From: Bacteroidales bacterium
GTDB taxonomy: Bacteria; Bacteroidota; Bacteroidia; Bacteroidales; UBA932
DNA: 34,570 nt
Assembly (NCBI GenBank): GCA_015060225.1
Contig: SUYX01000020.1
Span: 1-34,570 of the forward strand
Direction: 5' to 3'
The notes under the pieces are model-generated. The model made no database searches. It saw nothing but the letters and a program-made list of their open reading frames with translations, and was not told the DNA's origin. Below are positions 549-25,107 of the stretch, piece after piece. Position 1 is the stretch's first letter, and every line of letters starts with the position of its first letter. A program made the translations under genes and the position numbers.

Positions 549-1112
549 TGTTGTCCACAAACAAGGTGTCTTTTGTGGACGCGGAGGAGAAATAGTTGCC
601 GCCTGTCCACGCTGAGGGTGCCTGGTGTGGATGTATGGTGCCCGCAGTTGGCATTTGTCCACGGATGGGGCGTTTTTGTGGACGCGGAGGAAAATAGTTG
701 CCGCCTGTCCACACAGAGGGTGCCTGGTGTGGATGTATGGTGCCCGCAGGTGGCATTTGTCCACGGATGGGGGCGTTTTTGTGGACGCGGAGGAGAAATA
801 GTTGCCGCCTGTCTACACAGAGGGTGCCTGGTGTGGATGTGTGGTGCCCGCAGGTGGCATTTGTCCACGGATGGGGGTGTTTTTGTGGACGCGGAGGAGA
901 AATAGTTGCCGCCTGTCCACACATAGGGTGCCTGGTGTGGACGTATGGTGCCCGCAGGTGGCATTTGTCCACGGATGGGGGCGTTTTTGTGGACGCTGAG
1001 GAGAATAGTTGCCGCCTGTCCACACAGAAGGTGCCTAGTGTGGATGTATGGTGCCCGCAGGTGGCATTTGTCCACGGATGGGGGCGTTTTTGAGGACGCG
1101 GAGGAGATTCCC
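549..1112 (+). repeat. Tandem array 1 of the 104-bp (2 x 52-bp) GTCCAC/GTGGAY element
   Basis: About five and a half copies of a 102-104 bp unit. GTCCAC-type half-sites start at 553, 605, 657, 707, 759 and so on to 1070, and each is followed 21-22 bp later by GTGGAC or GTGGAT. The last one has decayed to GAGGAC at 1092. The linker between half-units carries AGAAATAG-TTGCCGCC, a subtype different from the GGGAAATG of the array at 17053 but the same as the repeat that overlaps the 3' end of the transposase gene. The orientation matches the arrays at 17053 and 18921. Open frames in this region are artefacts of the GC-rich repetition. Confidence 0.95.
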
Positions 1113-1166
1113 GGAGAAACGGTTCTGCCCAGTGGGGAGGAGACCTCCTCAGGAGGGGAACAAAAC

Positions 1167-17052: not shown

Positions 17053-17831
17053 CCTAGAGGCGGCTTTTGTCCACAGGAGGAGGTGTTTTTGTGGATGCGG
17101 CAAGGGAAATGTTGCCGCCTGTCCACGCAGGGGGTGCCTGGTGAGGACGCATGGTGCCCGGGGATGACTTTTGTCCACGGGAGGAGGTGTTTTTGTGGAT
17201 GCGGCAAGGGAAATGTTGCCGCCTGTCCACGCAGGGGGTGTCTGGTGTGGACGCATGGTGCTCGGAGACGGCTTTTGTCCACGGGAGGAGGTGTTTTTGT
17301 GGATGCGGCAAGGGAAATGTTGCCGCCTGTCCACGCAGGGGGTGCCTGGTGAGGACGCATGGTGCCCGGGGATGACTTTTGTCCACGGGAGGAGGTGTTT
17401 TTGTGGATGCGGCAAGGGAAATGTTGCCGCCTGTCCACGCAGGGGATACCTGGTGAGGACGCATGGTGCCCGGAGGCGGTTTTTGTCCGCGGGAGGAGGT
17501 ATTTTTGTGGATGCGGCAAGGGAAATGTTGCTGCCTGTCCACGCAGGGGGTGCCTGGTGAGGACGCATGGTGCCCGGAGGCGGCTTTTGTCCACGGGAGG
17601 AGGTGTTTTTGTGGATGCGGCAAGGGAAATGTTGCCGCCTGTCCACGCAGGGGGTGCCTGGTGTGGACGCATGGTGCTCGGAGGCGGCTTTTGTCCACGG
17701 GAGGAGGTGTTTTTGTGGATGCGGCAAGGGAAATGTTGCCGCCTGTCCACGCAGGGGGTACCCGGTGAGGACGCATGGTGCCCGGAGGCGGCTTTTGTCC
17801 ACGGGAGGAGGTGTTTTTGTGGATGCGGCAA
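17053..17831 (+). repeat. Tandem array 2 of the 104-bp element, upstream of the transposase
   Basis: Seven and a half nearly identical 104-bp units. The TTTTGTCCAC landmark starts at 17065, 17169, 17273, 17377, 17481, 17585, 17689 and 17793, all exactly 104 bp apart. In the unit at 17169 the half-sites start at 17173 (GTCCAC), 17195 (GTGGAT), 17225 (GTCCAC) and 17247 (GTGGAC), a 22/30/22/30 spacing. The first linker holds a perfect 7-bp hairpin GCGGCAA-GGGAAATG-TTGCCGC. In about half the units the fourth half-site reads GAGGAC. High identity between units points to recent amplification or conversion. Long open frames on both strands here are repeat artefacts. Confidence 0.97.
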
Positions 17832-18005
17832 TGACTGGAAAGTCCTGGATGGCCCTGGTGATGTTTCTGGTAAGATTTTTTGCTTTTTTTAAAAATAGCA
17901 ATTACAAAAAGAGAAAAATGTGTGTTTGTCGGGAGAATTATTTACCCAATTGATTGTATATCAGTGTACAATATTGTAGAATTGCAGAAATTTTTTTGTT
18001 GGATT

Positions 18006-18938
18006 ATGTCGGTGGAAGAAATTTTGAATTATGAGTTTGAGTCGCATGGGCCTTTTTGGCATTTGTGCACTCCGGGGGATTTGAGCGGATTGCTTTTTAG
18101 GGAGACAAAGGATTTTGTTTATGGAATGAATCTGGTGGCTCATGCGGTTGCTGTTCATAAAAAAGAGGTAGATATTTACACTTTTGTAATTATGAGCAAT
18201 CATTTCCATTTTGTTTTGAGGGGAAACCAGGAAGATTGCATTTCTTTTTTCAATTTTATTTTCCGGCGGTTGAAGCGGTATTTGAGTTTGCATGGGAGAA
18301 TATCAGATTTAGATGGATTTAATTACAAATTATTTAAAATTAGTGATTTGTACTATATGCGCAATGTTATTGCATATATAAATAGAAACCCTTATGTAGC
18401 CAATTCTTCCTATACCCCATACAATTATTCTTGGGGTACCTCTTCCTATCTATTTAACTCTTTGTCCGAGCGTATTATTTTTACACCATTGAGTAAATTT
18501 ACAGTAAGGCAATTGCGCAGTATTTTCTTTACCCGCAATGTGGATTTTCCCACTACTTTCAGGTTTATAGATGGGTATGTTGTGCCGTCCTCTTACTGCA
18601 AAATTTCCCAAACCGAACAGTACTTCAGAAGTCCAAGCCATTATTTCCATATTCTTTCCCGACAGGTTGAGAGTTATGCCCTAATTGCCAGAGAGATTGG
18701 CGATTGGGTTACATATACCGATGATGAGCTCTTTTCTGTTGCGGTTTCTTTGTCCATAAAGGATTATGATATTAAGAAAATTTCAGAACTGGATAAAGAT
18801 CAGAAAATTGCTGTGGCAACCAAGTTGCATTTCAATTATAATGCTACAAATAAGCAGCTTAAGAGGGTGTTGAGGCTTGATGAGGTGGTTTTGGATTCAC
18901 TTTTCCCGATGAGTAAAAGGTCTCCTGGGAAGAAATAG
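18006..18938 (+). CDS. REP-associated-type tyrosine (Y1/HUH) transposase
   Basis: The 310-residue product belongs to the IS200-like Y1 transposase superfamily, RAYT-like branch. The HUH motif is H66-F-H68 in MSNHFHFVLRG, and the likely nucleophile is Y124 in VIAYINRNPY, followed by the usual WGTSSY segment. The N-terminus WHLCTPGDLSGLLF also fits. A C-terminal ~100-residue helical part (residues ~215-310, ending KQLKRVLRLDEVVLDSLFP) looks like a helix-turn-helix DNA-binding region. I chose ATG 18006 over an in-frame ATG at 17880 because the 42 extra residues are unlike the family. The gene is flanked by 104-bp arrays on both sides in the same orientation and its TAG lies inside the first downstream repeat. 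A 12-bp palindrome TACAATATTGTA (17967-17978) just upstream could be an operator. Nicking of the repeats is inferred from known RAYT/REP pairs. Confidence 0.85.
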   Translation: MSVEEILNYEFESHGPFWHLCTPGDLSGLLFRETKDFVYGMNLVAHAVAVHKKEVDIYTFVIMSNHFHFVLRGNQEDCISFFNFIFRRLKRYLSLHGRISDLDGFNYKLFKISDLYYMRNVIAYINRNPYVANSSYTPYNYSWGTSSYLFNSLSERIIFTPLSKFTVRQLRSIFFTRNVDFPTTFRFIDGYVVPSSYCKISQTEQYFRSPSHYFHILSRQVESYALIAREIGDWVTYTDDELFSVAVSLSIKDYDIKKISELDKDQKIAVATKLHFNYNATNKQLKRVLRLDEVVLDSLFPMSKRSPGKK

Positions 18939-19145
18939 TTGCCGCCTGTCCACGCAGGGGGTGCCTGGTGTGGACGCATGGTGCCCGGAGATGGCTTTTG
19001 TCCACGGGAGTAGGTGTTTTTGTGGATGCGGCAAGGGAAATGTTGCCGCCTGTCCACGCAGGGGGTGCCTGGTGTGGACGCATTGTGCTCGGAGATGGCT
19101 TTTGTCCACAAATAAGGCCATTTCCGTGGATGGAAATGGCCTTGT
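18921..19145 (+). repeat. Tandem array 3 of the 104-bp element, downstream of the transposase
   Basis: Eight half-sites alternate in orientation at 18948, 18970, 19000, 19022, 19052, 19074, 19104 and 19126, an exact 22/30 spacing throughout. The first linker (AGAAATAG-TTGCCGCC) carries the transposase stop codon and is of the array-1 subtype; the second (GGGAAATG) is of the array-2 subtype. The last half-unit is a distinct cap with a strong hairpin. Confidence 0.95.
19114..19143. other. Cap hairpin ending array 3
   Basis: AAGGCCATTTCC (19114-19125) pairs perfectly with GGAAATGGCCTT (19132-19143), giving a 12-bp stem whose 6-nt loop is exactly the GTGGAT half-site. It is the N16 part of a diverged terminal half-unit. 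There is only a weak T-rich stretch on either side, so I do not call it a terminator. Confidence 0.85.
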
Positions 19146-24853: not shown

Positions 24854-25107
24854 TTCCCGACAAACACTTGCAGGCCCATTTCTCCACGGAATGGGCCTTT
24901 TTTGTGGACAAAAGTTACCTCCGAGCACCCGAAAGGTTGCTCCCGGCACTGTACTTCCACGCTGGGCACCCTCAGCGTGGACAGGCGGCAACATTTTCCC
25001 TCCGCGTCCACAAAAGATACCCTATGCGTGGACAAAAGCCACCTTCTGGCACCAAACTTCCACAAAAAGCACCTCCTGCGTGGACAGGCGGCAATATTTG
25101 TCGGGAA
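24854..25107 (-). repeat. Fourth copy of the 104-bp element, inverted, bracketed by TTCCCGACAAA/TTTGTCGGGAA
   Basis: Half-sites on the plus strand start at 24882 (CTCCAC), 24904 (GTGGAC), 24955 (TTCCAC), 24977, 25006, 25028, 25058 and 25080, with the 22/30 spacing kept except for a ~21-bp insert that forms its own small hairpin (GAGCA...TTGCTC, about 24923-24941). Read on the minus strand it has the same polarity as the other arrays and ends in the same kind of cap half-unit. An 11-bp inverted repeat (24854-24864 and 25097-25107) brackets the copy. Units are more diverged than in array 2, so this copy is older. Confidence 0.9.
24872..24903 (+). terminator. Terminator of cyuA, formed by the cap half-unit of the repeat
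   Basis: AGGCCCATT (24872-24880) pairs with AATGGGCCT (24890-24898) around a 9-nt loop and runs into T residues up to 24903: a textbook intrinsic terminator 34 bp after the stop codon. The loop holds CTCCAC, the half-site of the repeat, so the cap of the element doubles as terminator. Confidence 0.85.

Follow-up and report, generated by a model that had tools for sequence, protein, structure and literature searches.

The window examined here (the whole stretch of 34,570 nucleotides that was analysed) is contig C41 of G000, a Bacteroidales bin of 2.15 Mb and 86% completeness. It carries an open reading frame for a protein of 310 amino acids, with its stop codon at 18936–18938, between two tandem arrays of one repeat family (Table 1). 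As an earlier note on this DNA had described, the arrays adjoin the gene closely, within 175 bp upstream and 0 bp downstream: 174 bp separate the upstream array from the ATG, and the start of the downstream array coincides with the stop codon. The 174-bp leader between the upstream array and the ATG is presumed to be the promoter region. Further copies of the repeat, placed by the note at 549–1112 and 24854–25107, were recovered with slightly different limits, the second on the minus strand.

Table 1. Features of the window, with the basis of each assignment
Feature	Position	Strand	Basis or remark
Gene-less dispersed array	551–1120	+	TRF for part 571–1107, 5.2 copies of 104 bp
Upstream array, 7.5 x 104 bp (~15 units of 52 bp), GTCCAC-N16-GTGGAY	17057–17831	+	TRF, pattern search
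Leader of 174 bp, array to ATG	17832–18005	+	Sequence; array ends just past an arm
Y1/HUH class-2-like enzyme	18006–18938	+	ORF, hhalign, NCBIfam NF047646 below cut-off
HUH motif, His66-Phe67-His68	18201–18209	+	Both histidines invariant in alignments
Candidate catalytic tyrosine, Tyr124 (YINRNP)	18375–18377	+	Invariant in alignments
Downstream array, 1.9 x 104 bp, unit and orientation as in upstream array	18932–19132	+	TRF, register
Dispersed array	~24904–25099	-	Between putative serine-dehydratase-like and glutamine-cyclotransferase-like genes

The enzyme

For classification of the protein, profile–profile comparison and searches of curated family models were used. Residues 12–156 aligned over 141 columns with six Y1 proteins of related genomes (hhalign, E = 5.4e-12), which delimits a Y1 core of approximately these residues and a C-terminal extension of approximately residues 157–310. 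His66, His68 and Tyr124 are invariant in alignments of 6, 39, 17 and 66 proteins, in agreement with the Y1/HUH enzyme that the note had read from HFH at 66–68 and Tyr124. With an HUH motif and a candidate catalytic tyrosine inside a Y1 core, the protein can be assigned by its residues to the IS200/IS605 Y1 HUH superfamily; the Y---NP motif of TnpAY1 class 2 is found as Y124-INR-N128-P129, NG replacing NP in most of 17 aligned homologues. Invariance of the HUH histidines and the tyrosine across 39 diverse homologues argues that catalysis has probably been retained.

The window protein reached none of the Pfam and NCBIfam cut-offs tried and had zero matches in PHROGs. Against the RAYT model NF047646 it scored 19.1 bits, with a cut-off of 80 (E = 9e-4); this model matches 7 of 66 family members at E ≤0.01 (best 6e-4). 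Pfam Y1_Tnp also matches 7 of 66 at E ≤0.01 (best 6e-5), the window protein not being among them, and its 23-bit cut-off is passed by two members elsewhere (G010:C15, 26.1; G007:C94, 23.4). In the C-terminal ~150 residues no domain rose above cut-off in Pfam, NCBIfam or PHROGs. HeH/LEM of Pfam was sub-threshold for the window protein (15.8 against 28.9 bits), and no HTH or Bac_DnaA_C-like C-terminal domain was matched by Pfam in the 66 members. A phenylalanine, Phe300, is invariant in the 17 proteins aligned with that of the window and lies within a C-terminal [LMI]F(P) (window 18900–18911), which we take to resemble, loosely, a sliding-clamp motif.

The repeat unit and its copies

The repeat had been described in the earlier note as a 104-bp head-to-tail unit far larger than REPs. 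The tandem arrays are real; the 104 bp resolve into two diverged units of 52 bp, each GTCCAC-N16-GTGGAY-N24, and with an inverted pair spanning 28 bp of a 52-bp unit the claim of unusual size falls away. Over both strands of the window, GTCCAC-N16-GTGGAY matched 32 times, at 22 places; shuffles gave an expectation of 0.01. Spacing was counted between 5-letter cores over the window and 16 other stretches of G000: TCCAC-Nk-GTGGA gave 96 pairs at k = 16 and 3 at k = 15, GTGGA-Nk-TCCAC gave 78 at k = 26 and 7 at k = 25, and all other values of k from 0 to 55 gave at most 2 each for either pattern. Genome-wide, G000 holds 77 forward and 71 reverse matches to GTCCAC-N16-GTGGA and 0 to the reversed control pattern; the matches lie on at least 13 contigs, plus C52, C54 and C57. 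The window gene is bracketed by arms in the order GTGGAT, gene, GTCCAC, the upstream array ending by an arm.

Within this repeat family, variability in a gapless stack of 12 arrays was 0.069 for arms and 0.114 for other positions, pooled with three indel-slipped arrays included; in the 9 arrays that are in register it was 0–0.033 and 0.033–0.152, respectively. One array end, ATTCCCGGAGAAAC (window 1107–1120), stands three times in a row in G024 (L280, 223–264).

Some of the places occupied by dispersed arrays are free of them in relatives. At the site of array 24904–25099 no array was present in G006 or G015, nor was there one in G015 beside the tRNA genes that adjoin the first array (551–1120). 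The latter array matches a second block of the same genome, G000:C20:69618–70189, with 547 identities, 23 mismatches and 2 gaps; the two blocks have sharp common ends and unrelated immediate flanks. This match is suggestive, not proof, of block-wise copying. Movement of whole arrays is not claimed from two matching blocks, as one flank carries a tRNA 3' end and a rearrangement may be involved. That flank, to the right of the C20 array (L041 18252–18268), includes 17 nt of tRNA 3' end, as is seen after integration into a tRNA gene.

A 9-mer, TTCCCGACA, is also over-represented in the window, with 9 occurrences against 0.12 expected (11224, 18656, 21127, 23426, 24854, 25099, 27437, 27487 and 31857) and 96 in 642 kb of the genus, unevenly distributed by species. 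It sometimes forms inverted pairs, one of which brackets array 24904–25099. It was considered as an element end and set aside as a separate over-represented word.

Co-occurrence of arrays and enzymes in the genus

Two consecutive GTCCAC-N16-GTGGAY units were found in G000 (40 forward, 42 reverse) and G024 (23 and 25), the remaining 37 of the 39 genus genomes having none. The orthologous enzyme is likewise confined to G000 (100%) and G024 (80%), other related-genome matches reaching at most 47% identity; the best identity in G061 is 28%, and G062 has no match to the enzyme profile. Units with TGTCAC arms are also restricted among genus genomes to G000 and G024, which have the corresponding enzyme in common at 86% identity. 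The check proposed in the earlier note, whether arrays occur only with the transposase, came out in favour of its reading for the GTCCAC and TGTCAC families. The exception is GGGGAAC: its units occur in both genomes, and the matching enzyme was not found in G024 by profile search of a bin that is 87% complete.

The TGTCAC enzyme locus is syntenic between G000 and G024 on both sides, and the window locus is syntenic on the side of an OmpA-like gene. Because both loci tested are syntenic, the co-occurrence amounts to one lineage, in which the genes give no sign of recent movement. By one gene, G006 is nearer to G000 than G024 is (74% against 66%); in this bin, which is 84% complete, neither the orthologous enzyme nor GTCCAC or TGTCAC arrays were found.

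A fixed period beside homologous genes

The window genome encodes three close paralogues of the enzyme (42–48% identity) and two distant ones. The flanking arrays of the four close genes, that of the window included, carry differing arms: GTCCAC/GTGGAY, TGTCAC/GTGACA, GGGGAAC/GTTCCCC and, less clearly, CTGCA/TGCAG. For a broader survey, 120 distinct homologous genes were assembled: 6 from the window genome itself, 40 from related genomes (of 44 matches, the weakest four, G007:C136, G024:C27, G002:C37 and G007:C113, being left out) and 74 from named or viral loci. These 74 are 80 named loci plus 1 viral, less 7 duplicates, the 80 being the best of at least 291 confirmed; all 80 come from Bacteroidales or Bacteroidia bins, many of them from herbivore gut. 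The viral collection yielded 1 relative and the plasmid collection 0, which gives little indication that the element is carried by phages or plasmids.

Flanks of up to 700 bp were scanned for periodicity at lags of 20–129. As control, 560 windows were taken from 20 stretches (400 kb), which were set by hand at round coordinates of contigs from ten family-carrying genomes. Above the 99% control threshold, which 6 of 560 control windows exceed by construction, lay 109 of the 233 flanks of the 120 genes; 82 of the 109 peaked at lags 50–53 or 100–104 and the remaining 27 were scattered. A flank of period 50–53 or its double accompanies 59 of 120 genes, against 2 of 560 control windows, one of which (L113) has a unit that, by our reading, contains a 17-letter word also found in an enzyme-associated array of its own genome. 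The homologues are therefore not consistently array-free, and 61 of 120 have no such array above threshold. A quick tree has arrays of the 51-bp type in each of its two deep halves.

Other Y1 loci of the same and related genomes were treated in the same way. One of 27 has a period-52 flank and a few have other periods (45, 46, 48, 72, 84). The 27 derive from 30 rows, of which 2 were the enzyme family itself and 2 overlapping ones were the period-52 locus; several of the loci weakly match the wider profile, some lie near contig ends, and their windows include part of the gene.

Some of these 61 genes with no such array above threshold sit in clades with period 73, period 93–94 or large palindromic modules. 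Modules of period 73 flank L075 (AGTGGCGCA...TGCGCCACT) and L077, modules of period 93–94 flank L069, and in the clade of L092, L099 and L101 palindromic modules of ~160 bp stand on both sides of the gene (L099: TTCCTGCAATTCACCGTGGGCA...TGCCCACGGTGAATTGCAGGAA). A rule that all periods (51–52, 73, 93–94) are whole helical turns is not claimed, since the other 27 lags are scattered.

Pairing of genes and unit families

In 62 genes, units could be sorted into 50 unrelated families, with periods of 51 (43 genes), 52 (13) and 50 (6); these periods were picked within 50–53, and the unbiased evidence for the period is the scan of lags 20–129. Of the 25 genes flanked by arrays on both sides, 23 had their own downstream unit, among all downstream units, as best partner of the upstream unit, with a median score of 80 for own pairs against 14 for others; in the two exceptions, L043 and L079, the repeats appear to be simple and unrelated. 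Upstream and downstream arrays have the same orientation in 18 of the 25, opposite in 6 and tied in 1, calls that are blurred by the palindromic arms. Unit similarity tracks protein identity (Mantel r = 0.43, 0 of 2000 permutations), mostly above 60% identity; below 60% the median unit score is 14, near that of shuffled units (12).

At 37 loci the arrays could be aligned on both sides, some of the upstream alignment scores being low. In 32 of these the downstream array begins between -16 and +31 bp relative to the gene end. The upstream array stops 76–479 bp before the ATG, often right after an arm. With the upstream array often ending just past an arm and the downstream array beginning at the gene end, the gene appears to lie inside an inter-arm spacer.

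Inverted arms and folding

Inverted arms of at least 6 bp were present in 58 of 87 units (66.7%) against 12.1% of shuffled units, and arms of at least 7 bp in 38 of 87 (43.7%) against 3.0%; the window is absent from these 87 because its 104-bp dimer outscores the 52-bp lag. In 48 of 56 arrays the arms were less variable than the other unit positions, a comparison that somewhat favours arms, as they were chosen on the consensus. When 40 arms were compared, a set that leaves out six near-duplicate genes, CAC/GTG was common to 18 otherwise different arms (shuffled mean 6.5; 18 never reached in 2000 shuffles). GT[AG]G lies within 3 of the 40, that of the window among them, and by our own reading GGGGWSAS is spelled by 0 of 40, many arms being shorter than 8 bp. 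No shared foot or nicking site was found beside 55 aligned palindromes, the window not included; the canonical GTAG/GTGG foot was sought there and not detected. When 8 units were folded as single-stranded DNA, the arms were paired in 7, and z fell below -2 relative to shuffles in 5.

Interpretation and alternatives

As in REPtrons and TIRtrons, the enzyme most likely has its cognate substrates in the arrays, and we consider it probable that the locus represents a partnership of this kind in satellite form, in which the enzyme acts on its own arrays. Such action is something that we, like the earlier note, infer. Each array family would have one Y1 HUH enzyme gene, whose product would read its own inverted-arm pair. 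Arms of alternating orientation run through 51–52-bp units joined head to tail, the gene seeming to occupy the spacer between two arms of an otherwise apparently single array. The enzyme would bind arm pairs in one of two forms, hairpins of single-stranded DNA at the replication fork or duplex DNA contacted by an enzyme dimer; hairpins do fold, yet a rigid duplex or a dimer agrees better with the strict spacer. Nicking and rejoining at the arms would then duplicate units and seed gene-less arrays elsewhere. A period held at about five helical turns is most simply accounted for by the geometry of the enzyme–DNA complex and not by sequence descent, because units without detectable similarity keep it. 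Counting against the partnership are the 61 of 120 genes with no such array above threshold and the GGGGAAC arrays of G024 with no matching enzyme; opposite orientation in 6 of 25 genes, moreover, does not fit one split array.

Arrays of this form could also serve as iteron- or operator-like sites at which the protein binds duplex arms cooperatively, for self-regulation or DNA organisation, with growth by recombination or slippage and neither nicking nor mobility. Strict arm spacing (96 pairs at 16 against 3 at 15) despite diverged spacer sequences would suit such binding, as would a period of ~5 helical turns with arm centres ~2 turns apart, arrays that adjoin the gene closely, and enzyme loci that stay put between G000 and G024. 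We nevertheless regard this reading as rather unlikely: the HUH histidines and the tyrosine do not vary among 39 diverse homologues, many gene-less arrays are found a long way from the enzyme gene, and relatives have array-free sites. Passive satellites, that is, tandem repeats of the host that share a common descent, inherited their period and later received the genes by insertion, would draw on the capacity of tandem arrays to homogenise themselves and on the single orientation seen on both sides of 18 of 25 genes, as if an array had been split. Common descent is very hard to reconcile with 50 unrelated unit families at periods of 50–52 bp and a period peak in the unbiased scan; the array family also tracks the enzyme, and control DNA of the same genomes is nearly array-free.

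The least probable reading is a canonical RAYT with REP/BIME elements in a Bacteroidota genome. It would account for the Y1 core, the Y---N[P/G] motif, one gene per repeat family and cognate dispersed palindromes; the window arm GTGGAY starts with GTGG, and one window half-unit has a second hairpin, GTGGAT/GTCCAC, that can be read like a double-foot REP of subclass 2.4. GT[AG]G in 3 of 40 arms, the lack of a foot common to the 55 palindromes, a score far below the RAYT model, a long C-terminal half and strictly periodic head-to-tail arrays all speak against it. Of the earlier reading of a RAYT-like transposase in a possible REPtron, the RAYT-like Y1 protein (E = 5.4e-12), its Bacteroidota host and its specific association with arrays stand; the canonical REPtron does not, because the arms have no shared GT[AG]G foot and the protein reaches 19 bits where the RAYT cut-off is 80.

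Returning to the partnership of enzyme and satellite, the results suggest that in uncultured gut Bacteroidales an enzyme shapes its own satellite DNA, the arrays differing from enzyme to enzyme while their unit length stays at ~51 bp. A wider proposal, which we put forward tentatively and would sooner doubt than defend, is that these HUH enzymes are dedicated makers of satellite DNA that impose a unit of about five turns on whatever arm sequence is currently recognised; if so, dozens of unrelated satellite families of one period arose beside one enzyme family in uncultured Bacteroidales. Such partnerships touch on long-standing questions, namely the origin of REPs and the retention of a domesticated transposase together with its repeats, and on a possible origin of satellite-like DNA in bacteria. 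About 60 enzymes, each with a readable and rapidly changing presumed substrate of fixed geometry, may provide a natural specificity code of residues against arm, and the system allows one to ask directly whether an HUH enzyme is able to measure tandem DNA and build it.

Comparison with known systems

In plasmid iterons, helically phased direct repeats adjoin the gene for the protein that binds them. The present arrays are likewise helically phased direct repeats next to a presumed binding-protein gene; they differ in being chromosomal, in having inverted arms inside each unit and in their many gene-less copies. RAYT/REP-BIME systems and REPINs resemble the present one in combining a single enzyme, a single cognate palindrome family and dispersed copies. 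Cognate palindromes were found both flanking the gene and elsewhere in the genome, as for RAYT/TnpAREP, whereas the REP with a 5' GT[AG]G foot was not, there being no shared foot here and the repeats forming strictly periodic satellites.

In TIRtrons, a RAYT-like gene lies between inverted repeats unrelated to GTAG REPs (Di Nocera 2013, PMC3733652); in the sections of that report drawn on here, some TIR families vary between genes and occur at dispersed sites, in many cases as dimers or clusters, and GGGGWSAS is common to some TIRs, or to the majority according to the corresponding sections of PMC6006769. Inverted repeats on both sides of the window gene and dispersed, gene-specific families are features in common. 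Fixed-period head-to-tail arrays are not mentioned in those sections of PMC3733652, and GGGGWSAS is found in 0 of 40 arms here. With TnpAY1 subclass 2.1, as presented in the parts of the 2018 survey by Quentin used here (PMC6006769), the window protein has in common the Y---NP type motif, NHxH, an extra C-terminal domain and length; it differs in having only a sub-threshold HeH/LEM hit and no HTH or DnaA_C match in Pfam, and in its arrays, no REP-like sequences being recorded there beside subclass 2.1 genes. Subclass 2.6 is similar in being a Bacteroidetes group of Y1 class 2 with atypical flanking structures copied elsewhere in the genome. Its median length is 179 aa against 310 here, its motif YIH[QN]NP against Y[IV]NRN[GPA], and the same parts of the survey do not mention fixed-period tandem arrays for it (PMC6006769).

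Head-to-tail satellites of fixed period with no shared GT[AG]G foot therefore appear to be new, no description of them having been found in searches of one open-access library or in the sections of the two papers used here. Judged from the sequences compared and from those parts of the two papers, a fixed period that outlives sequence similarity is what would set these arrays apart from the RAYT–REP and TIRYT–TIR systems (PMC6006769, PMC3733652).
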